A stretch of DNA of 64,000 nucleotides, from contig JAQTXA010000004.1 in the NCBI GenBank assembly GCA_028689025.1, positions 1 through 64,000 on the forward strand. The letters run 5' to 3'. This document shows, piece by piece, positions 27,739-49,500 of the stretch. Within the stretch, counting starts at the first letter, position 1, and every line of letters begins with the position of its first letter. The position numbers were made by a program, and so were the translations under genes. The notes under the pieces were generated by a model. That model was not told the origin of the DNA, did not search any database, and saw only the letters and a program-made list of their open reading frames with translations. The DNA comes from Aliarcobacter sp. (GTDB taxonomy: Bacteria > Campylobacterota > Campylobacteria > Campylobacterales > Arcobacteraceae).

Positions 27739-27771
27739 AAGGAGAGAGTTTTTTGACTCTCTCCTTTTTTT
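27739..27771 (+). terminator. Rho-independent terminator after secF
   Basis: A perfect stem (AAAGGAGAGAGT with ACTCTCTCCTTT) encloses a 6-base loop of mostly T and is followed by a T run. It ends the yajC-secD-secF operon. Confidence 0.92.
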
Positions 27772-27820
27772 ATTGATTAGTTTTACGATGGATATTGTGG
27801 ATTTGTTTGTTGTGATGCTT

Positions 27821-28268
27821 CTTACTTTTTCTTTTTAGTAAAGAAAAAGTAAGCAAAAAGAAAAGCGTATCGAAAAATGTACTTTTGGGGATTTTTTTCA
27901 ATCGTCACTAAAATTTAAAAACTCGACTCCGTACCTCCGTCTCAAACAGTTTAAATTTCTTAACGCTCCTCAATCAAAAAATCTAATCCCAAAAATACAA
28001 ATCGATACAATTTTCTGTTCATCCATACTTTTAAATTTTTAACAATTTTTTTGAATAAAGAAATATTGGCGTATAAAAATGTGAGCATTTTCAAAATAGC
28101 GTTAAGAAAAATCTATATAAATTCGTAAAGAAATTTGAACTGTTTGAAGACGGAGGAACGGAGTCAAGTTTTCAAATTTTAGAATTTGTATAGATTTTTT
28201 AGCTATTTTGAATCCCTGTGAACGCTTTTCTTTTGCTAACTTTTCTTTACTAAAAAGAAAAGTAGAAT
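27821..28268. repeat. Nested inverted-repeat element, about 450 bases, non-coding
   Basis: Outer arms 27821-27868 and 28222-28265 are inverted copies with a few single-base gaps. Each arm itself folds into a 10-11-base hairpin (ACTTTTTCTTT with AAAGAAAAAGT on the left). Inside lie two inverted copies of a 55-base core, 27908-27961 and 28128-28182, about 90 percent identical and containing CTCCGT-rich motifs. Each core is flanked by its own pair of inverted arms: 27867-27897 with 27976-28008, and 28090-28124 with 28182-28212. No open frame, transposase or obvious target duplication was found. It resembles a MITE-like or structured-RNA element. Together with the terminator it accounts for most of the 628 bases between secF and the next gene. 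Confidence 0.8.
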
Positions 28269-28325: not shown

Positions 28326-29546
28326 ATGTGTAAATGTAGCCAAAAAAATTGTGATTTAGAAGTTTTTGAGAATAATGATAAATGTATTTTACATTGTGAA
28401 AAAGATGAATGGAAACTAGATGCTAAAGAGAATCAATATTTTTCTGATTGTTTAAAAAATTTAATTTCTGAATATAAAAAAACTGATGATTATAAAAATG
28501 GATATTTACTTGAATTAGAAAGTTTAGTTTATCCATTACATAATTTTGCTTATTTTAAAGAGATTGAGGTTCATTTTGAGGATAGTAAGTTTATTAATGA
28601 TGTTGTTCTTTCTTCAAAGGATACAAAATTTATTCAATTTTTTAATTGTGATTTTTATTCTAATTTTAGAATACTTGGTAATCTAGGTACTTTTGATAAA
28701 GAGTTAATTATTCGGGAATGTATTTTTCACAAACTAGAAGATACAAATGTAATATTTAATCTTAGTGGTACTAATTTTGAAAAATATGTAGATTTAAGAG
28801 AAACTAAATTTTATAGAAAAACAGAATTTGATGATTCATCTTTTGAAGATAATGTGTTTTTTAATAATTGCTACTTTTCTGATAAGTTAAATTTAGAAAA
28901 TACTATTTTTTATGAAAAGGTAAATTTCTTTAATATTAAATTAGATAATGGAATATCAAACCGTGAAACAGCAAGAATAATAAAAGACTCTTTTGAAAAG
29001 CAAAACAACATAATAGCCGCAAATGAATTTTATGCTTTAGAGATGAAAGAAAGAGAAAAAGAGTTAGAAGAAGATATTAAAGAAGGTAAAAACTTTTTAG
29101 AATGGTTAGTTTTCAAAATTCATGGGATATCTTCAAATCATTCACAAGATTGGTTATTAGCTCTTTATTGGATATTTATAATTGGTTTTATATCTTCATA
29201 TTATGATTTTAATTTAATTCAATATGAAGGTAAATATGTACATTATGAATTATCATTAATTTTTAAAACAATTGGATTAATATTTGTTGTGTTGTTTTTA
29301 AATAGTATATGTAAAATAAAAGATAAATTAGTAAATGGTTCATATTTTATAATATGTTTTTATTTAGTTTATATATATTCAACAGAAGATTATTTACTAA
29401 GCTTATTTTCTAAAACAATTAATCCTTTTTCTGTAATGAAAACTAATGATGCAATTAATGGTATTCAATTATTCTTTAAAATAATTATTGCATACTTAAT
29501 CTACCAATTAATAATCTCAATAAGACAAAATACAAGAAGAAAATAA
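28326..29546 (+). CDS. Pentapeptide-repeat-like protein with C-terminal membrane domain
   Basis: The 406-residue protein starts with a cysteine-rich segment (CKCSQKNC, later CILHC) that may bind metal. Residues about 90-215 form a degenerate pentapeptide-repeat solenoid, for example NLSGTNFEKYVDLRETKF and DSSFEDNVFFNNCYF. A charged helix follows (NNIIAANEFYALEMKEREKEL), a segment I associate with membrane-anchored pentapeptide proteins. About four membrane helices occupy 275-395. Function is unknown. The gene follows the inverted-repeat element and ends in a good terminator. The gene downstream encodes a paralogue of only the membrane domain (shared NWLLAL/DWLLAL and LIYQLIIS/LIYKMLLA motifs). 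Confidence 0.8.
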   Translation: MCKCSQKNCDLEVFENNDKCILHCEKDEWKLDAKENQYFSDCLKNLISEYKKTDDYKNGYLLELESLVYPLHNFAYFKEIEVHFEDSKFINDVVLSSKDTKFIQFFNCDFYSNFRILGNLGTFDKELIIRECIFHKLEDTNVIFNLSGTNFEKYVDLRETKFYRKTEFDDSSFEDNVFFNNCYFSDKLNLENTIFYEKVNFFNIKLDNGISNRETARIIKDSFEKQNNIIAANEFYALEMKEREKELEEDIKEGKNFLEWLVFKIHGISSNHSQDWLLALYWIFIIGFISSYYDFNLIQYEGKYVHYELSLIFKTIGLIFVVLFLNSICKIKDKLVNGSYFIICFYLVYIYSTEDYLLSLFSKTINPFSVMKTNDAINGIQLFFKIIIAYLIYQLIISIRQNTRRK

Positions 29547-29550
29547 TTTT

Positions 29551-29577
29551 AAAAAGGCTTGAATACAAGCCTTTTTT
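29551..29577 (+). terminator. Rho-independent terminator
   Basis: An 11-base perfect stem (AAAAAGGCTTG with CAAGCCTTTTT) has a 4-base loop and a T tail. It separates the pentapeptide-repeat gene from its membrane-domain paralogue. Confidence 0.92.
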
Positions 29578-29592
29578 AAGAGGAAGTTTTGA

Positions 29593-29598
29593 TATAAT
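29593..29598 (+). promoter_or_regulatory. -10 box of the membrane-domain paralogue
   Basis: A consensus TATAAT lies 44 bases before the ATG at 29643. It supports separate transcription of this small gene after the terminator just upstream. Confidence 0.6.
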
Positions 29599-29642
29599 AA
29601 AATTTCGTGTTTAATAAAAAAATCTTATTAAAAGAAGGTCAG

Positions 29643-30137
29643 ATGCAAGTAGAAAATAATAATATTTCTTTATACCAAAAAGTAAAAAATAGATTTGATT
29701 TAATAACTTCAAATAATGGAACAAATTGGCTTTTGGCATTAAATTGGATTTTAGTAATAGAGTTTTTTTCTGCGGTTTTAGAATATTTATTTATTGATAG
29801 TGCTAAAAATTTTGTTATATATATTCCCGATGGGATGTTAAAAGAGTTGTTAATTGCAGTGATGATTGTAGTTTTTATTTGGTATAGCATTTATAATTTT
29901 GTTTTTATGAAAAAAGAACAGTTTTTCATTTTCACCCTTTATATCTCTTTATGTATTTATCTTTTGATTACAAATGACTTATCTTTTAATCTTTTAGCTC
30001 ATAATCTAAACTTTTTTGAAATGACAATCGATGGATTTGGCTTTTATTTGATATTTCAATTACTCTTAAAATTTATTATTTTTTATCTAATTTATAAGAT
30101 GTTGCTAGCTTTTAGAAACAGAAATAGGCTTTCATAA
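29643..30137 (+). CDS. Small membrane protein, paralogue of the upstream protein's membrane domain
   Basis: The 164-residue protein has a short polar N-terminus then four predicted helices (about 28-45, 65-85, 90-110 and 135-155). The pattern NWLLALNWILVIEF and the end FYLIYKMLLAFRNRNR align with DWLLALYWIFIIGF and AYLIYQLIISIRQNTR in the protein at 28326-29546. It therefore looks like a duplicated membrane domain without the pentapeptide part. The ATG at 29643 is chosen for its GAAGG site; a GTG at 29607 lies too close to the -10. No known family is recognised. It may modulate or assemble with the larger protein, which is speculation. Confidence 0.75.
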   Translation: MQVENNNISLYQKVKNRFDLITSNNGTNWLLALNWILVIEFFSAVLEYLFIDSAKNFVIYIPDGMLKELLIAVMIVVFIWYSIYNFVFMKKEQFFIFTLYISLCIYLLITNDLSFNLLAHNLNFFEMTIDGFGFYLIFQLLLKFIIFYLIYKMLLAFRNRNRLS

Positions 30138-39560: not shown

Positions 39561-42541
39561 TGTTTAAGTTTATTTATAGAACCATTATTAACCCTATAAT
39601 TGGACCTATTATTGTTGCTTCAACAGCTCTTGTTTTATTAGCAATATTCTATTTACCAACTCTATCTTTGAGTAATCAAAAAGAAAAGATTATTGTTGAT
39701 TCAACTCAAGTAGTTGATTATTTAAAAACTTTTCGCGCTTATTATAATGAATTTGTAGTTTTAAAACTTATAAATAAAAGTAACATCAAAGTTGATTATA
39801 ATCATGAGTTTTCTTCAGATACTATTCCTTTACCTGCTACAACTATTTATAATTTAAGTGATAAATTAACAAAAAATCAAGATATAAGAATTAACTTTTT
39901 TAGTGATTATCCATTTCCTAATAGAGCAAATAGAGTTTTGGATCAGTTTCAAAAGAATTCTTTAGAATATTTAAGAAAGAATCCAAAAGAGTTTTATACA
40001 AGAGAAGATATAGTAAATGGAAAAAAAGTTTTTAGGGTTGCATTCTCTGATGTTATGACTTCTCAAAATTGTTTAAATTGCCATAATAATAGGGTTGATA
40101 CTCCCAAAAATGATTGGAAATTAAATGATGTAAGAGGTGTTCTTGAAGTTATTACTCCTTTTAAAGAGGAGTTTGTATTAAGTGCAAAAAATACAGAAGC
40201 AATAATTGTTTTTATGCTTTTTGTTATCTTGTCTTTTATAGTTCACTATACAATTTTATATTTCAAACGTGAAAAAGAGCTAAAAACACAAAATAATAAA
40301 TTGGAAGATGAAGTTTTAAAAAGAACAAAAGAGTTAAATGATTCTAATTTACTTTTATTAGAGTACAAAAAAGCTGTTGATGCAAGTGCAATTGTTTCAA
40401 AAGCTGATAAAAATGGAAATATAATCTATGTTAATAAAACTTTCTGTGATGTTTCAGGCTATTCAAAAGATGAATTACTTGGGAAACCTCATAATATTGT
40501 AAGACATCCTGATATGCCAAAAGAAGTTTTTAAAGAGTTATGGGAAACAATAAAAGCAAAAAAAATATTTAAAGGCATTATAAAAAATAGAAATAAAAAT
40601 GGTAGTTTTTATTATGTGGCAAGTACAATAGTGCCAATTTTGGATAAAGATGATGAAATAATCGAATATTTATCATTAAGATATGATATAACAGAATTAG
40701 TTGAAGCTAGACAAAAAGCAGAGATTGCACAAAAAGCAAAATCTACATTTTTAGCAAATATGAGTCACGAAATAAGAACACCATTAAATGCTATTATAGG
40801 TTTTTCTGATATTTTGTGTGAATCAAATATTGATAGTGAAAATAAAGAGAATGCAAAAATAATATCAAGAAGTGCAAAATCATTATTAAATATAATAAAT
40901 GATGTGTTAGATATATCAAAAATGGAAAATGGTAAGTTAGATGTTGAATTAAGTGAATTCTCATTATTCGATTTAACTGAACATATTGTGGAGCTTTTCT
41001 CGATAAATGCAACGGATAAGAATATAAAATTTGTATATAGTGTTGATCCAAAGTTACCCCATTTAGTTATTAGTGATTCAATGAGATTACAACAAGTTCT
41101 ATCAAATTTATTAAGTAATGCAATCAAATTTACAAGCGAATATGGAAAAATATATTTTAAAATTGAAGTTTTAGATTATGATAATGAAATAGCAAAAATT
41201 AAATTTTCTATTAAAGACAGTGGAATAGGTATGACACCTGAACAATTAAAAGTTATATTTAATCCATTTTCGCAAGCAGATAGTGGAATAAGTAGAAAAT
41301 TTGGTGGAACAGGTTTAGGCTTGGCAATTTGTTTTGACATTCTTAAAATTTTAGGTGCACAAATTGAAGTAAATTCTGAAATTGGAAAAGGAAGTGAATT
41401 TTCTTTTGTATTAGACTTGAAAATAATAAAACTTAATGATAGTTTGAAAAAGGAAAATATTTCTTTAGCTATTTGTGATTTAAGTAATGATGAAGACAAT
41501 GTAAAAGAGAGCGTAAAAAATTATTTAGAAAAAATTGCAGATGTTTTTGATATTAGAAAAGAACCAAACAAAAAAGTTGATATTCTTTTTTGTTTTGGAG
41601 GAAGTAATTTTAGTAATAATTTAATTGAATTTAAAAATCAAAATAGTAAATCTAAAGTAGTTTATGTGGGAGATAAAGATAATTTAGCTCAAGATGTTTT
41701 ACCATATATTGATTACAATATTAATTTACCAATATATGGTTCTAAAATTTATAATATTATTGCTGATAATTCTAATATAAATAATAGTGTTTTAGATAAA
41801 TCTTCAGATAATGAAAAATTTCAAGGAAAAATATTAGTAGCAGAAGATAATGTAAATAATCAAAAATTAATTGAAATATTATTGAAAAAATTAGGATTAG
41901 AATCTATTATTGTTTCAGATGGTGAACAAGCTATTGAAATGTATAAAAAAGAGAAGTTTGATTTAATATTAATGGATATAAATATGCCAATAATGGATGG
42001 TATTAGATCAACAAAAGAAATAATTGAACTTAAAAAAGATTCTTTTTATAATGATATACCAATAGTAGCATTGACTGCAAATTCTATAGTAGGGGATAAA
42101 GAAAGATATTTAAGTGATGGGATGGATGATTATTTGTCTAAGCCAATAGAGTTTGATAAGTTGGTAGCTATTTTAAAGAAATATTTACGTAAAGATATTG
42201 TTGAACCATTATTAACTAATAATATAGAATTTGATAAAAACATAATAATTGAACGTTTGGGATTAGATGAGAGTACAGTTGATATGTTACTTGATAATTT
42301 CTTTTTAACATTAGATAGTGATTTAAATAAATTACAAAATTCAATAGATATTAAAGATAGTAGTAAGATTTCAGAGATAGCACATTATATAAAAGGTGCT
42401 TGTTCTAATTTTGTAATGAAAGAAGCAACTGAAATATTACAAGAGATAGAGACAAAAGCGAATAATCAAGAAGTGAATTTTGATTTGAAAGAGTTGATTA
42501 GTATTTTTGATAAAATTAAAATTAAGTTTGAGGAGAAATAA
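39560..42541 (+). CDS. Hybrid histidine kinase with heme-type DUF3365 sensor, REC and HPt
   Basis: The 993-residue protein has membrane helices at about 13-35 and 214-234. The periplasmic part matches the DUF3365/Tll0287-like fold and contains a c-type heme motif CLNCH (C171, C174, H175). A PAS domain (about 265-385), the phospho-acceptor H403 in MSHEIRTPL, an ATPase domain (GTGLGLAI), a receiver with D806 (LMDINMP) and a C-terminal HPt with H942 (AHYIKGAC) follow. It is a complete phosphorelay on one chain, plausibly redox-sensing. It overlaps the HD-GYP regulator by one base. The FIST gene follows at once, and its REC and HPt are close relatives of those in the next two kinases. Confidence 0.94.
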   Translation: MFKFIYRTIINPIIGPIIVASTALVLLAIFYLPTLSLSNQKEKIIVDSTQVVDYLKTFRAYYNEFVVLKLINKSNIKVDYNHEFSSDTIPLPATTIYNLSDKLTKNQDIRINFFSDYPFPNRANRVLDQFQKNSLEYLRKNPKEFYTREDIVNGKKVFRVAFSDVMTSQNCLNCHNNRVDTPKNDWKLNDVRGVLEVITPFKEEFVLSAKNTEAIIVFMLFVILSFIVHYTILYFKREKELKTQNNKLEDEVLKRTKELNDSNLLLLEYKKAVDASAIVSKADKNGNIIYVNKTFCDVSGYSKDELLGKPHNIVRHPDMPKEVFKELWETIKAKKIFKGIIKNRNKNGSFYYVASTIVPILDKDDEIIEYLSLRYDITELVEARQKAEIAQKAKSTFLANMSHEIRTPLNAIIGFSDILCESNIDSENKENAKIISRSAKSLLNIINDVLDISKMENGKLDVELSEFSLFDLTEHIVELFSINATDKNIKFVYSVDPKLPHLVISDSMRLQQVLSNLLSNAIKFTSEYGKIYFKIEVLDYDNEIAKIKFSIKDSGIGMTPEQLKVIFNPFSQADSGISRKFGGTGLGLAICFDILKILGAQIEVNSEIGKGSEFSFVLDLKIIKLNDSLKKENISLAICDLSNDEDNVKESVKNYLEKIADVFDIRKEPNKKVDILFCFGGSNFSNNLIEFKNQNSKSKVVYVGDKDNLAQDVLPYIDYNINLPIYGSKIYNIIADNSNINNSVLDKSSDNEKFQGKILVAEDNVNNQKLIEILLKKLGLESIIVSDGEQAIEMYKKEKFDLILMDINMPIMDGIRSTKEIIELKKDSFYNDIPIVALTANSIVGDKERYLSDGMDDYLSKPIEFDKLVAILKKYLRKDIVEPLLTNNIEFDKNIIIERLGLDESTVDMLLDNFFLTLDSDLNKLQNSIDIKDSSKISEIAHYIKGACSNFVMKEATEILQEIETKANNQEVNFDLKELISIFDKIKIKFEEK

Positions 42542-42542
42542 A

Positions 42543-43682
42543 ATGGAACTAATAAATCTTGTTTATGATAATAACAATTGGTTGGTAAAAGATGGTGATT
42601 TAAAAAACGAAGATTATTCTAAAGCAAATATAGTTTTTTTATTTGGTGATACAGATATTATAAAAGATGAAAAAAGATATTTAGAATTAGTTCAACTTTT
42701 TCCTACAGCAAAAATTGTAGGTTGTTCCTCATCTGGAAATGTTTTAAATTCTCAAGTTAGCAAATATCCTTTAGTTGCAACTGCAATCTCTTTTGAAAGT
42801 TCATGGGTTGAAATTTCATCAATTAATTTCAATGAAGGTGATGATATAGAAAAACTTTCTGAAAGTCTAATAAATAATCTTCCAAAAGAAAAATTAAAAC
42901 ATATATTTTTAATGAGTGATGGACTTTTGATAAATGGTTCAGAGTTAACAAGAGGAATAAATAAAGTTAATAAATTTACAACAGTTACAGGCGGAATGGC
43001 AGGAGATGGAGCTAGATTTCTTGAAACTTATGTAATTGCCAATAATGTCCCTGCAAAAAAAACAATAGTTGCAGTTGGGTTTTATGGAGAACTTTTATCT
43101 ATTCAAAGTGGTTGTTTTGCTGGCTGGAGTGAATTTGGAAGTCAAAGAACAATTACAAAATCAAGTGGAAATATTCTTTATGAAATAGATGGCCAGCCAG
43201 CATTAGATTTATATAAAAAATATTTAGGTGAATATGCTTCACAGTTACCAAATAGTGGACTTAGATACCCTTTAAATATTAAAGAGAACGATGATTCACA
43301 CGAAATTATCAGAACACTGTTATCTATAAATGAAGAAGATAAAAGTATTACTTTTGCAGGAGATGTTCCAACTGGATTTAAAGCAAGGCTAATGAAGCCA
43401 GATATTGATGAGTTAATTAATGGGGCAGGAAAAGCTGCTGAGGTTATTAACAAAGTTAATGATAAAACAGCTCTTGGTTTAATTGTAAGTTGTGTTGGAA
43501 GAAAGATAGTAATGAATCAATTAATTGATGATGAACTTGAAATAATACAAGAGACATTAGGTGATAATGTTCATTTAATAGGTTTTTATTCTTATGGAGA
43601 GATTGCTCCTTTTCAAGATAATCTTCTAACTTGTGAATTACATAATCAAACAATGACTTTAACTACTATTTACGAGTCATAA
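42543..43682 (+). CDS. Stand-alone FIST-domain protein
   Basis: The 379-residue protein without membrane segments is made of FIST_N (about 30-215, with VGCSSSGNV and TGGMAGDGARF) and FIST_C (about 220-375, with SCVGRK and GFYSYGEIAPF). It is a ligand-binding sensory module with no catalytic output. The same architecture forms the input of the kinase at 3639-5546, with matching motifs such as GGMAGD and the LGEY segment. The ATG at 42543 follows GAGGAG; an earlier ATG at 42507 lies inside the previous gene. It sits between two hybrid kinases (2-base gap to the next), suggesting it feeds signal to the soluble kinase downstream. Confidence 0.92.
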   Translation: MELINLVYDNNNWLVKDGDLKNEDYSKANIVFLFGDTDIIKDEKRYLELVQLFPTAKIVGCSSSGNVLNSQVSKYPLVATAISFESSWVEISSINFNEGDDIEKLSESLINNLPKEKLKHIFLMSDGLLINGSELTRGINKVNKFTTVTGGMAGDGARFLETYVIANNVPAKKTIVAVGFYGELLSIQSGCFAGWSEFGSQRTITKSSGNILYEIDGQPALDLYKKYLGEYASQLPNSGLRYPLNIKENDDSHEIIRTLLSINEEDKSITFAGDVPTGFKARLMKPDIDELINGAGKAAEVINKVNDKTALGLIVSCVGRKIVMNQLIDDELEIIQETLGDNVHLIGFYSYGEIAPFQDNLLTCELHNQTMTLTTIYES

Positions 43683-43684
43683 TT

Positions 43685-46492
43685 ATGCATCGTTTATTAG
43701 AAAGACAAATAAAAAGATATTTTGGAAAGAGTTTTTTAATAAATTCTTTTGATGAAAATTTATTAAACTTATTAAAAGACATTTCACAAACTTACATGGA
43801 TAATGAAGGTGAGAGAAAATTCTTAGAAAATACAATTACTGTAAATACAGAGGAGTTAAATAATTTATTAAGAGAAAGATCTTCTTTATTAGAGTCAAGA
43901 ACTGAAGAAAACCATGAGGTTATAAATCTTTTACACCAATATAAAAATGCTATTGATAGCTCATTAATAGTTAGTATGACAGATTTAGATGGAATTATTA
44001 AGTATGCAAATGAAAATTTTTGTAAAACTAGTGGTTATTCAAAAGAAGAGCTTATTGGAAAATCACATAGTATTATAAAAAATCCAGATAATCCTAATAG
44101 TTTATTTACTGATATATGGAGTACTATTAAAAACAAGCAAATTTGGCATGGAACTTTCTCAAATTTGAAAAAAAGTGGCGAAACTTTTTATATTAATATG
44201 ACAATAGTGCCACTATTAGATAGAAATCAAGAGATAAAAGAATATATGTCACTTAGTGAAGATGTTACTCAACAAATAGTTTATCAAAAAGAGTTGAAAT
44301 TCCAAAGAGAAAGAATTAATACAATTTTTAATGCACAAGAAAATATAGTATTAATTGTAGATGAACATGATGGTGTAGTTGATGCAAATAGAAGGTTTTT
44401 TGAAGTTTTTGATTTTATTGATTTAGAAGATTATAAAAATAGAGTCAATAATATTTCTCTTTTATTCGATGAAAATTATAATAATGACAATTTAAGTGAA
44501 TCTTTATGGTTCAAGCAATTTCTCGAGAAGAGTAATCATTTATATAAAATTAGCAGAATAGATAATAATTCAGAAGAACAAATATTTAGTATTCATTGTA
44601 GAAATGTAGAATTGAATAATAAAACTTACTATTTATGTACTTTTATAGATATTACAGAACTTGAAAATGCTCGAAAAAAGGCAGAAATAGCACAACAATC
44701 AAAATCAATTTTTTTAGCAAATATGAGTCATGAAATACGAACCCCATTAAATGCAATTATAGGTTTTTCTGATATTTTATGTGAATCAGGTATAAAAACT
44801 GAGGATAAAGAGAATGCAAAAATTATATCAAAAAGTGCAAAATCCTTGTTAAATATAATAAATGACGTTTTAGATATCTCAAAAATGGAAAGTGGAAAAT
44901 TAGATATTTCAAATGAAGCATTTTTATTTGAAGTTTTTATTGAGCATATTGTTGAACTATTTTCTGTTGTTTCAAAAGAGAAAAAGATAAAGTTTATTTA
45001 TAACGCTGAATCATTTTTACCATATTCTTTGATTGCTGATAATACAAGACTTCAACAAATTTTATCAAATCTTTTAAGTAATGCAATAAAGTTTACACCA
45101 GAAAATGGTGAAGTAATTTTCACAGTAAAAATTTTAGATAGAGTTGATGATGATATAAAAATTAAATTTTCTGTAAAAGATAGTGGATTAGGAATGACTC
45201 CTGAACAACAAAAAATTATATTTGATCCATTCTCTCAAGCAGATGAAGGAATAAGTAGAAAATTTGGTGGAACAGGTCTTGGTCTTGCAATTTGTTCTGA
45301 TATTATTAAATTAATGAATTCTGAAATTGAACTTGTTTCTAATCTAAATGAAGGAAGTGAATTTAGTTTTACTCTTGATTTAAAAATTGATAAATTTGAA
45401 AATAAAGATAAACTCTTAGAAAAAAGTTTGAAATTTTTATTATATTGTAGTGAAGGCAACAATGAAAAATTAAGAGCAAATATTCAAAGTCATATAAATA
45501 AAATTGGTTTTGTTAGTGATTACAATAGCCAAGATAATAAAATAGGAGATGTTTTATTCTGTTGTGGAATAGATAACTTAAATTTAGTAATAAAAGAGTT
45601 CAAAAAAGAAAACAGTAATTCACTTATTATTTATATAGGAAATTCAAAAAATATAGTAGATATACAAATAAAAGATTATATAAATCATTATATTGATTTA
45701 CCAATTTATGGATCAAAAATTTACAACATAATAATGGATAACTCAAATTTACATAAAGAAGTATTAAAAAAATCGTCAAATAGAGAAAAATTTGATGGTA
45801 AGATCTTAGTTGCAGAAGATAATCCTAATAATCAGAAATTAATAGATATATTATTAGGAAAATTAGGTTTACAAGTTGTTCTTGTTGCAAATGGAGAAGA
45901 AGCAATAGAAAAATACAAACAAGAAAAGTTTGATTTAATATTGATGGATATAAATATGCCAATAATGGATGGTGTAAATGCAACAAAAGAGATACGAAAA
46001 ATAGAAAATGATTATTATAAAATACCAATTGTAGCATTAACTGCAAATTCAATTGCTGGAGATAAAGAAAAATATTTAAATCAAGGAATGGATGACTATT
46101 TATCAAAACCTATAGAGTTTGATAAATTAGTAAATCTTTTAAAGAAATATCTATTAGCTAATGAATTTTATGAAATTCAATTACAAAAAATAACTTCAAG
46201 TAACATCTCAAAGAAACTTTTAATACCAAAAGAAATAAGTGAAATGTTAATTACAGATTTTAAAAATAAGATACTAAAAGATATGGAAGAATTAAATCTT
46301 TTAATTATAAATCAAGATAGTATTGCTTTAAAACAAAAAGCATATGATATTAAAAATTCTTGTTTAAATATGGATTTAGTAATGGCTACAGAGATATTGG
46401 AAAAAATAGAAGAATCTTCTTTAAATAATGAAGAATTAATTAATGAATTTAATAATCTGAATAAAATTATTTTATTTACTTGTGATTTATAA
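43685..46492 (+). CDS. Soluble hybrid histidine kinase, PAS-PAS-HK-REC with HPt lacking its histidine
   Basis: The 935-residue protein has no membrane helix. A helical N-terminus (1-75) precedes two PAS domains (about 80-205 with TSGYSKEELIGKSHSI, and 210-330). The phospho-acceptor H349 lies in MSHEIRTPL and the ATPase box is GTGLGLAI. A receiver follows with LMDINMP. The C-terminal HPt-like domain reads AYDIKNSC where the two paralogues have AHYIKGAC and AHYLKGSC, so the phosphorylatable histidine is Tyr887 (TAT at 46343-46345, one base from CAT). The relay must therefore pass to another HPt or end at REC. It probably receives input from the FIST protein just upstream. Confidence 0.92.
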   Translation: MHRLLERQIKRYFGKSFLINSFDENLLNLLKDISQTYMDNEGERKFLENTITVNTEELNNLLRERSSLLESRTEENHEVINLLHQYKNAIDSSLIVSMTDLDGIIKYANENFCKTSGYSKEELIGKSHSIIKNPDNPNSLFTDIWSTIKNKQIWHGTFSNLKKSGETFYINMTIVPLLDRNQEIKEYMSLSEDVTQQIVYQKELKFQRERINTIFNAQENIVLIVDEHDGVVDANRRFFEVFDFIDLEDYKNRVNNISLLFDENYNNDNLSESLWFKQFLEKSNHLYKISRIDNNSEEQIFSIHCRNVELNNKTYYLCTFIDITELENARKKAEIAQQSKSIFLANMSHEIRTPLNAIIGFSDILCESGIKTEDKENAKIISKSAKSLLNIINDVLDISKMESGKLDISNEAFLFEVFIEHIVELFSVVSKEKKIKFIYNAESFLPYSLIADNTRLQQILSNLLSNAIKFTPENGEVIFTVKILDRVDDDIKIKFSVKDSGLGMTPEQQKIIFDPFSQADEGISRKFGGTGLGLAICSDIIKLMNSEIELVSNLNEGSEFSFTLDLKIDKFENKDKLLEKSLKFLLYCSEGNNEKLRANIQSHINKIGFVSDYNSQDNKIGDVLFCCGIDNLNLVIKEFKKENSNSLIIYIGNSKNIVDIQIKDYINHYIDLPIYGSKIYNIIMDNSNLHKEVLKKSSNREKFDGKILVAEDNPNNQKLIDILLGKLGLQVVLVANGEEAIEKYKQEKFDLILMDINMPIMDGVNATKEIRKIENDYYKIPIVALTANSIAGDKEKYLNQGMDDYLSKPIEFDKLVNLLKKYLLANEFYEIQLQKITSSNISKKLLIPKEISEMLITDFKNKILKDMEELNLLIINQDSIALKQKAYDIKNSCLNMDLVMATEILEKIEESSLNNEELINEFNNLNKIILFTCDL

Positions 46493-46504
46493 AAAAGGCA
46501 AGTT

Positions 46505-49500
46505 ATGAGAAATATTACAATTAAAATAAAGTTGCTATTACTGTTTATACTAGTAAAAGTATTGCCACTGTTATTAATAGCATATATGGCATATGAAGGT
46601 GTCCTAAAATTAGATAGTTATCTAACAAAAAGTACAAATTTTTTGTTCAACCAAAGTAAAAATATAATAATAAATACAGCAGATGCTTCAATAGAAGATA
46701 GTATAAAAAACCTAGATAAAAAATCACAAGAAACTTTAGAAAAAGTATCTTATGATATAGCAAATCAGGTAGCTAACTTTTTGTATGAAAGAGATAGAGA
46801 TATTTTATTTTTATCAAAATTAGATTTGAATGATAAAGTATTGAAAAACTTTTCTGATTCAAAAAATAAAAATATTACTCTGCATGGAAACTATTATTAT
46901 GATGAAGTAAGTAATAGCTATAAAACTAATGAAGAAGCAAATCAAAAAGAGAAGAGAGAACAAAAAGCTAATCTAGTTGATAATCAAAAAGAGTTTAATA
47001 CAATTGAGCCAGTTGAATTCTTAAAAAAAGAGATACCAATCTATAAAGAAGTTACTTTTTTTGACCTAGAGGGTAAAGAAAAATATAAAATATCTTCACT
47101 TAATGAAGAGAAATTAGATGTTTCTAACAAGAAAAATACTTATGTAAACTCAGAAACCTATTTTGATGAAATATCAAAATTAAAAAATGGTGAGATTTAT
47201 GTTTCAGATGTAATAGGTGAATATGTAGGAACAAAAGTAATTGGAACTTTTACAAAAGAGAAAGCAATAAAAGCTGGAATTGCATTTGAACCTCAAAAAT
47301 ATGGATATGCAGGTATTGAAAATCCATTGGGAAAAAGATTTGAAGGAATTGTAAGATTTGTAACGCCAGTTTTTAAAAATGGTGAAAAAATTGGTTATGT
47401 ATCAATGGCTTTAGATCATAGGCATATTAGAGAATTTACAGATACTGTAAATCCAACAAGTCAACAAGTAAAACAGAATATTTCAGATGCAACATTAGGT
47501 AATTATGCCTTTATGTGGGATTATGAGGGGAAAAGTATTTCACACCCAAGAGATTATTCAATTGTAGGATATGATAAAAATACAGGACAAAGAGTAATGC
47601 CTTGGTTAAGTGCAGATATTGCAGCAAAATATTATACCTCAAATCAAGATATAAATGAATTCCTAAAAAATTACCCAACTTTTGAAGAACAAAGTCTAAG
47701 TAAAAAACCAAACTTAAAACAATTAAAAGAAGATGGCAAGGTAGGACTTGATTGTAGATATCTAAACTTTGCTCCACAATGTGAAGGATGGATGCAAGTA
47801 ACACAAAATGGTGGATATGGGTCATTTGTAATAAACTGGAGTGGAGTGTGGAAATTAACAACAGCAGCAACAATTCCATACTATACCGGTAAATATGGAA
47901 AAAGTAAAAGAGGCTTTGGATTTGTAACAATTGGGGCAAGTGTAGATGATTTTCATGCTGCTGCAAATGAGACAAAAAGAAGTGTATCTGAGATATTAAA
48001 AGTACAAACTAATAATATGGAACAAATTGTAAATGAGAATAAAAATGAGATAGCTGACTTTATTAACACTTTAATTAATGAATTAACTATTGTGACAGTT
48101 GGTATGGTTTTAATTATTATCTTTATTGCAATTTGGATGTCAAATTATATTTTGTCAAAAATAAACAATTTATTGGTTGGTACAAAAAGATTCTCAAATA
48201 AAGAGTTTGATTATAGAATAAAAGTTAGTTCAAATGATGAAATAGGTAATTTGGAAAAATCATTTAATAATATGGCATCGGAAATTAATACACTTGTTAC
48301 TGCTCAAAAAGATTTAACAGAGCACTTAGAAGATAAAGTAAATGAGAAAACTGATCAGTTATTACAAATTAATCAAGATTTAGAAAAAGAGATAGATAAA
48401 AGAACAATATCTCTTAAAGAAGCACTTTTAAAAGCACAAAATGCGGATAAAGCAAAGTCAACATTTTTAGCAAATATGAGTCATGAAATAAGAACACCAT
48501 TGAATTCTATTATAGGATTTTCGGAAGTTATAAGTATTTCAGATAATGTTGATGATACAAGTAAAAAATATTCGAAAATTATTGAAATAAGCGCAAAATC
48601 ACTACTTACTATATTAAATGATATTTTAGATATATCAAAAATTGAAAGTGGTAATTTTAAAATTTCTTTTGAAAAAGTGGATATTCATAAAATATGTGAA
48701 AATAGTTTTGAACTTTTTTCTAACAGAGCAATTGATAAAAAAATAGATTTTAATTTTAACATAGATAAAAATATACCAAAATGTCTTTTCTCAGATACTA
48801 TTAGAATTAAACAAGTATTATCAAATATTCTAAGTAATGCAATAAAATTTACTCCAGAAAATGGAAAAATAGATTTTGATGTACAACAATTAAGTAAAAC
48901 AGATGATATTACACAAATAAGATTTATTATAAAAGATAGTGGAATAGGAATATCAGAAGATAAAATAAAAAATATTTTTGAACCCTTTATTCAAATTGAT
49001 AATGAATCAAACAGAAAATATGAGGGAACAGGATTAGGTCTTAGTATTAGTAATCACATAATAAATGCTTTAAATTCTCAAATTGAAGTAAAAAGTGAAA
49101 TTAATAAAGGTACATCTTTTTGGTTTGATTTAGATTTTGAAATTTGTAAAGAAAATGTTATAGCTTTAGAAGAAAATATTATTGTTGAATCTCAATTTGT
49201 AGGAAAAGTTTTAGTAGCAGAAGAAAATCATTTAAATCAAGAAGTTATAAAATATATGCTTCAAACTTTTAATGTTCAATTTGAATTAATAGATAAGCCA
49301 AAAGATGTAATAGAAGAGTATAAAAAAAGCAATTATAATTTAATTTTAATTGACAATAATATGAAATTATTAAATGGTCTAGAAGTATTTGAAGAAATAT
49401 TAACTTATGAAAAAGAGAATAATTTAAACCATATCCCATTAGTTATTTTGAGTACAGATAATAGTATGATGAATAAAATAGGTGTTGATTCATATTTAAG

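Follow-up and report, generated by a model that had tools for sequence, protein, structure and literature searches.

A Palindromic Element Pair at the secF Locus

In the window analysed here, a stretch of 64,000 nucleotides from an Aliarcobacter sp. contig (assembly GCA_028689025.1, JAQTXA010000004.1), nested palindromes occupy positions 27813-28265. On one side lies secF; on the other, two accessory genes, whose products are a 406-aa protein with a weak pentapeptide-repeat match and a 176-aa protein with no match, precede the core genes DUF6394-leuS. The original prediction had placed the element in a housekeeping region, which describes the secF flank but not the opposite one. The features of the locus are as follows.

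27740-27765, plus strand: probable secF terminator, a hairpin with a T-run, outside the element (inverted repeat, sequence)
27813-28008, plus strand: left element, type I, with its AT-hairpin at the left end; aligned to the reverse-complemented right element; folds well alone (z -4.7 against shuffles)
27821-27853, plus strand: AT-rich hairpin of the left element (inverted repeat, alignment); also in relatives, and in variant form in other phyla
27853-27867, plus strand: linker GCAAAAAGAAAAGCG after the left AT-hairpin (alignment); hairpin plus linker also in relatives, in variant form in other phyla
27867-27902, plus strand: 5' arm of the left outer stem, with GTATCG at 27867-27872 and GGGGATTTTTTTCAAT at 27887-27902 (folding, alignment)
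27971-27990 and 28003-28008, plus strand: partners of that arm, CAATCAAAAAATCTAATCCC and CGATAC respectively (folding, alignment)
27911-27919 with 27950-27958, plus strand: left inner stem (inverted repeat, alignment)
27920-27949, plus strand: left core, consisting of AACTCG (27920-27925), an apical stem and CTCAAACAG (27941-27949) (inverted repeat, alignment)
27959-27965, plus strand: conserved one-sided bulge CTTAACG after the left inner stem (comparison with Arcobacter-group copies)
28009-28080, no strand: spacer separating the two elements (sequence)
28081-28265, minus strand: right element, type II, inverted; resembles single host-genome copies; folds well alone (z -5.9 against shuffles)
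28090-28212, minus strand: large hairpin of the right element
28131-28139 with 28171-28179, minus strand: right inner stem (inverted repeat, covariation, alignment)
28140-28170, minus strand: right core (same basis)
28240-28262, minus strand: AT-rich hairpin at the right end of the right element
28326-30137, plus strand: the two accessory genes between the pair and DUF6394-leuS; relatives have other genes or none here

The nested palindromes are two diverged copies, inverted head to head, of one gene-less, dispersed intergenic element of about 190 bp (185-196 bp in the window by alignment). When one half is reverse-complemented, it aligns with the other, and the two are thus homologous elements set back to back: the palindromes within a palindrome are a pair of palindromic elements, inverted relative to each other, with both AT-hairpins pointing outward. 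The alignment matches them at the AT-rich hairpin end and in inner stem, core and bulges; their outer stems are different. An inverted-repeat search recovered the outer arms (27827-27862/28226-28261, 81%; 27856-27868/28222-28234, 100%), the left arm's own hairpin (27821-27834/27840-27853, 100%), the inverted inner cores (27908-27942/28148-28182, 91%; 27942-27965/28124-28147, 92%) and the arms of the right core (28107-28129/28177-28199, 87%). Together with the folding of the whole region, 12 standard deviations below dinucleotide shuffles (z -12), this search bears out the nested inverted-repeat element that had been proposed. The two nested inverted halves of that proposal also stand, and its bounds do not: each half is a complete element, better delimited as 27813-28008 and 28081-28265.

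The general plan runs, from the outside inward, through an AT-rich hairpin (CTTTTCTTTTTAGTAAAGAAAAG), a linker (CAAAAGAAAAGCG), variable outer stems, one-sided bulges of CTTTACG or CTTAACG against TA, an inner stem, an internal loop of AACTCG and CTCAAACAG, and a small apical stem. The bulge is conserved as CTTTACG/CTTAACG among Arcobacter-group copies and, by reading, is CTTAACG-like in Bacteroidota and Haemophilus. The CTCCGT-type motif, first taken for the conserved core, turned out to be the variable apical part; what is conserved is the flanking AACTCG...CTCAAACAG.

Chance pairing of AT-rich arms, which the original prediction had raised together with a core confined to this locus, is ruled out by the shuffles and by homologous copies elsewhere. 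Within the window, the arm and core patterns recur at no other place. Separately, positions 40685-49000 of the window hold three long coding regions with partial repetition (60-85% identity), spaced by about 3.9 kb, which are apparently tandem paralogues of sensor or regulator genes.

Copies and Hotspots in the Arcobacter Group

We searched for the element in the host genome (G000) and its relatives. The right element matched three single copies with unrelated flanks, at 92% (G000:C5:138762-138947), 82% (on C19) and 80% identity (on C32), so that the host carries the family at four loci, the window included. Matches were found in 25 of 60 relatives; the strong ones fall within the genus, much of which has the element, and within one further genus of the same taxonomic family. 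The relative G012 has, at three loci with differing flanks, a composite built from two copies in inverted orientation. These single copies and recurrent pairs bear out, as regards the anatomy, the suggestion of mobilised repeats paired in inverted orientation. At the three G012 loci (L072, L088 and L046), the spacer between the copies has further small palindromes (GCAATGGTATTGCC...GGCAATA), which recur at all three.

At the secF site itself, where a comparison of relatives had been proposed, G029, G026, G010, G009 and G021 have the pair or what remains of it, and G013, G017, G018 and G020 lack the element. A second locus, site A, lies beside a comFC-like gene and retains an aligned full copy in several species; the interior is deleted in G005 and G001, a stump remains in G018, and G017 and G029 have no copy. 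These internal deletions, stumps and losses indicate that copies decay freely in place. The site-A elements form one lineage beside differing neighbouring genes, a pattern equally compatible with ordinary homologous exchange in which the repeat serves as anchor. The ends of the window copies are imperfect (GTGATGC/GTGAGC), no target duplication beyond AT-rich chance was seen among Arcobacter-group copies, and no clean empty site was found for the window's own copies.

The surroundings of eight single copies in the Arcobacter group revealed a recurrent layout. In seven of them, core DNA that occurs genus-wide lies beyond the AT-hairpin, and the opposite flank occurs only in the same genome or in one other; joining the flanks of all eight gave no matching empty site in 31 genomes. 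At two hotspots, one following tex and one following a flavoprotein gene, the core gene is succeeded by a single accessory gene or genes, then by the palindrome, the AT-hairpin and core DNA. The stop codon of the cargo falls inside the GTGAGC end (L497), 0-4 bp from it (L500, L501, L510) or at most 18 bp from it (L499, L503). Other genomes have empty hotspots that lack cargo and element alike, with 12 bp (G010) or 49 bp (G018) from tex to the next gene, and 61 bp at the flavoprotein hotspot in G028; in G014, the cargo and half of the palindrome are missing together. The cargo includes a SIR2-NB-ARC-TPR protein, a RhuM protein, two DUF2971 proteins and two FRG proteins, all from known or candidate phage-defence families.

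This layout resembles integron cassettes in plan, in the Arcobacter group only; it is not general in other phyla. By this analogy, the element would be the 3' boundary site of single accessory genes, an attC-like folded single strand, and gene and element would be exchanged as a unit. The fixed polarity, with cargo adjoining the GTGAGC end and core DNA on the AT-hairpin side, the joint absence of cargo and element from the empty hotspots, and the candidate defence families among the cargo all speak for it. Nevertheless, we consider it unlikely. The elements of other phyla sit beside ordinary housekeeping genes, and a comparison of 100 adjacent with 100 distal genes gave no excess of defence families. 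PADLOC at a loose cut-off also matches core genes of the window, and given this and the lack of enrichment, we claim no linkage to defence outside the Arcobacter-group hotspots. Furthermore, the accessory gene is oppositely placed relative to the element at site A and in the window, and the attC core motif GTTRRRY is, by eye, absent from the stem base, which reads GTTAAGA without the final Y. Finally, the 8-bp duplications that flank Sedimenticola members, described below, are typical of a DDE transposase.

Paired Stems and a Core Common to Many Phyla

Across copies, the sequence of the stems is free to vary and their pairing is maintained. Among 20 copies from the Arcobacter group, pairing holds in 97% of stem cells, and both sides have changed at 15 of 33 pairs, with 59 doubly changed cells against 18 in shuffles (0 of 500 shuffles reached the observed number). 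The signal was also seen in 18 copies from one Clostridium genome, where 37 of 80 pairs are compensated and 120 cells are doubly changed against 29 in shuffles (again 0 of 500). The apical stem covaries as well (GC/GC, AC/GT, GGC/GCC, GACT/AGTC and CAAACT/AGTTTG), and in the secF-site copy of G026, TTGCAA replaces TTTAAA in both arms of the inner stem. In a Lachnospiraceae genome (G446, L350-L359), we observed that the outer 40 bp of the arms are copy-specific yet complementary within each copy, and that the inner 110 bp are common.

To look beyond the group, we scanned one genome per species for the core AACTCGCTNCGCTCAAACA and obtained at least 116 stretches among the matches listed. Among these, the core occurs in Bacteroidota, Beta-, Gamma- and Deltaproteobacteria, Clostridia, Nitrospirota, Patescibacteria and others. 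For 100 of 110 loops among the matches listed, the arms are mutually complementary beyond the 95th percentile of swapped arms (median 35.5 versus 14). Thus, the hairpin tip is constant across phyla, and the stems are unrelated in sequence yet paired. The nearly invariant part is the internal loop AACTC/TCAAACA around the apical mini-stem; as this sample was picked by an exact core 19-mer, it cannot measure core variation outside the apex and overstates the invariance of the core. An AT-rich hairpin with a purine-rich linker accompanies many of the cross-phylum copies as well, again on the same side. Copy number reaches up to 78 per genome, against 0-1 for a reversed-pattern control.

The core also appears in other contexts. 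Nine viral contigs of about 9-14 kb (L473, L441, L421, L435, L447, L449, L453, L462 and L488) carry the exact core 19-mer with no palindrome, adjoining a conserved block (CTGGCGCACTTCG...); by reading only, genes of L473 and L441, the two contigs with listed reading frames, look like those for filamentous-phage Zot, coat and adsorption proteins. Haemophilus prophage-like contigs (L410, L411, L416, L463 and others) hold a complete copy of the element. Searches of plasmid and phage collections gave no DNA match to the element, and no gene family was shared among 100 genes adjacent to elements in other phyla. No description of the element turned up in the open-access literature, where its sequence strings gave only primer coincidences among the titles listed; since the literature covered was open-access papers, we call the element undescribed provisionally.

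Strong covariation and conserved internal loops are what a functional RNA would show, and a structured RNA was among the possibilities first put forward. The elements could accordingly be a family of long structured RNAs spread by mobility, either independent small RNAs or RNase III-processed mRNA elements, in which the core would be a loop that binds protein or RNA. We regard this as rather improbable, and less likely than a function in DNA. Most copies lie between genes (an open frame of at least 150 aa covers 16 of 124 loops), without preference for either orientation towards their neighbours (28 ++, 26 --, 25 convergent, 11 divergent), which fits a DNA rather than an mRNA function. No Rfam 15 covariance model matched at the gathering level, and below it there was noise only. 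Moreover, the loop strand shows no preference for G.U over A.C, and the opposite strand is slightly favoured, so that an RNA of that opposite strand would be compatible with the counts: across phyla, mismatches on the loop strand are A.C in 169 and G.T in 118 distinct contexts, a modest bias (p 0.003). In Sedimenticola the numbers are 128 and 85, and Clostridium has no bias. The excess of A.C over G.T suggests that the complementary strand, which bears the GCGNAGC tip, may be the one that folds. d(GCGNAGC) sequences form exceptionally stable DNA mini-hairpins, and GNA triloops are specially stable, a stability that standard DNA folding parameters may omit; with such parameters, the core folded alone gave no hairpin.

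The arms might also be kept alike by mutation, through quasi-palindrome correction by template switching, in otherwise inert repeat DNA on which no selection acts. The free arm sequence agrees with this, as does the large excess of double over single changes in the Clostridium copies (120 versus about 12 wobble cells). However, such correction should erase asymmetric loops, and therefore cannot explain their conservation: CTTAACG against TA and AACTC against TCAAACA persist and are common to several phyla. We judge this account, too, to be fairly unlikely as a whole.

Mobility of the Family and Known Systems

Movement could be seen in Sedimenticola. In Sedimenticola SB48, core-bearing palindromes end in GTAACTACTCAC...GTGAGTAGTTAC, with 12-bp inverted ends. 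Of 51 copies with both ends, 23 are flanked by an exact 8-bp duplication and 39 by one that agrees at six or more of eight positions, against 0.9% at this threshold in a swapped-flank control. When the flanks of 18 sites were joined and sought in the sister species SN1189, six sites were contiguous and empty, with a single 8-mer, and one was filled. Inverted ends, 8-bp duplications and empty sites together indicate that the Sedimenticola elements transpose in the manner of DDE transposases. A parent transposon was sought as facing exact ends 0.8-4 kb apart, and none was seen among the first 100 listed of 174 places. The Sedimenticola copies have no AT-rich hairpin, and their link to the Arcobacter-group element is confined to the common core and hairpin plan. 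Two Sedimenticola sites (G436:C49:25637-25663 and G436:C56:5577-5603) are 27-bp remnants of just two facing terminal inverted repeats, as if the interior had been deleted.

These results place the element as MITE-like in that it has no coding capacity and its copies are dispersed at non-homologous sites. The suggestion of a MITE is supported at the level of the family, by the terminal inverted repeats, duplications and empty sites seen in the distant Sedimenticola and not at the window's own copies. Overall, the feature in the window is probably an inverted pair of gene-less, palindromic mobile elements from a MITE-like family with a hairpin core conserved across phyla. Such an element would be moved in trans by a transposase supplied by others, and we infer that a protein reads its conserved core in the form of a hairpin of single-stranded or extruded DNA. 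Arm pairing would matter only during mobilisation, so that resident copies would decay, and template-switch correction between the arms may add to the compensation. The window pair would have arisen when two diverged subtypes were joined head to head, and would then have been inherited at the secF site.

A broader proposal combines two claims: a cross-phylum class of mobile DNA recognised by the fold of its hairpin tip, not by its ends, and, in some lineages, the trading of single accessory, often defence-like, genes at fixed chromosomal hotspots, which would amount to an integron-like system without a recognised integron. Here, the tip would comprise the AACTC/TCAAACA loop and the apical mini-hairpin, d(GCGNAGC) on the complementary strand, and a conserved protein would move the elements through single-stranded or extruded DNA. 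The probability that both claims hold is, in our assessment, low. A 19-base core common to unrelated palindromes in many phyla points to either a conserved reader or very wide horizontal transfer, and finding the reader would open a new mechanism of mobility or regulation. In the Arcobacter group, the core also marks the points at which conserved loci take up single accessory genes, several of which are candidates for phage defence.

Several known systems invite comparison. REPs are palindromes of 20-40 bp, of GTAG and CGTC families, that are linked to RAYTs (PMC3733652). Like REPs and BIMEs, the elements are extragenic palindromes in several phyla, often in inverted pairs, and they might have been mobilised by a Y1 (RAYT) transposase. 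This origin is highly improbable: the elements are about 190-240 bp long, the window pair carries no GTAG or CGTC tag, and no link to a RAYT was seen. No Y1_Tnp match was found in the host genome (assembly 95% complete), and 6 of 31 genus genomes have one; the 8-bp duplications in Sedimenticola also do not fit single-strand Y1 insertion. With integron attC sites, the copies at the Arcobacter-group hotspots, and only these, share a folded imperfect palindrome, conserved unpaired bases, a place right after the stop of a single accessory gene and a fixed polarity. Unlike integron cassettes, they have no attC core motif by reading and form no array, and members elsewhere have 8-bp duplications.

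Haemophilus genomes have inverted pairs of the element (L142 and L169, the latter between ilvC and ilvY). The intergenic dyad sequences of Haemophilus influenzae are mentioned in one paper as thought to aid the mobility of gene loci (PMC4144887). The dyads are likewise inverted, intergenic and near movable loci, a likeness of description and not of sequence; as a lead, the two Haemophilus pairs may be such dyads. Finally, the bacterial MITEs RUP, ERIC, Correia/NEMIS and CIR have been reviewed (PMC2229807). Like MITEs, the elements are small, gene-less, intergenic, dispersed and hairpin-forming, and those of Sedimenticola have terminal inverted repeats and target duplications. MITEs have ends that fit a transposase and an unconstrained middle; in the present elements, the ends differ between lineages, the middle is conserved across phyla, and the stems covary.
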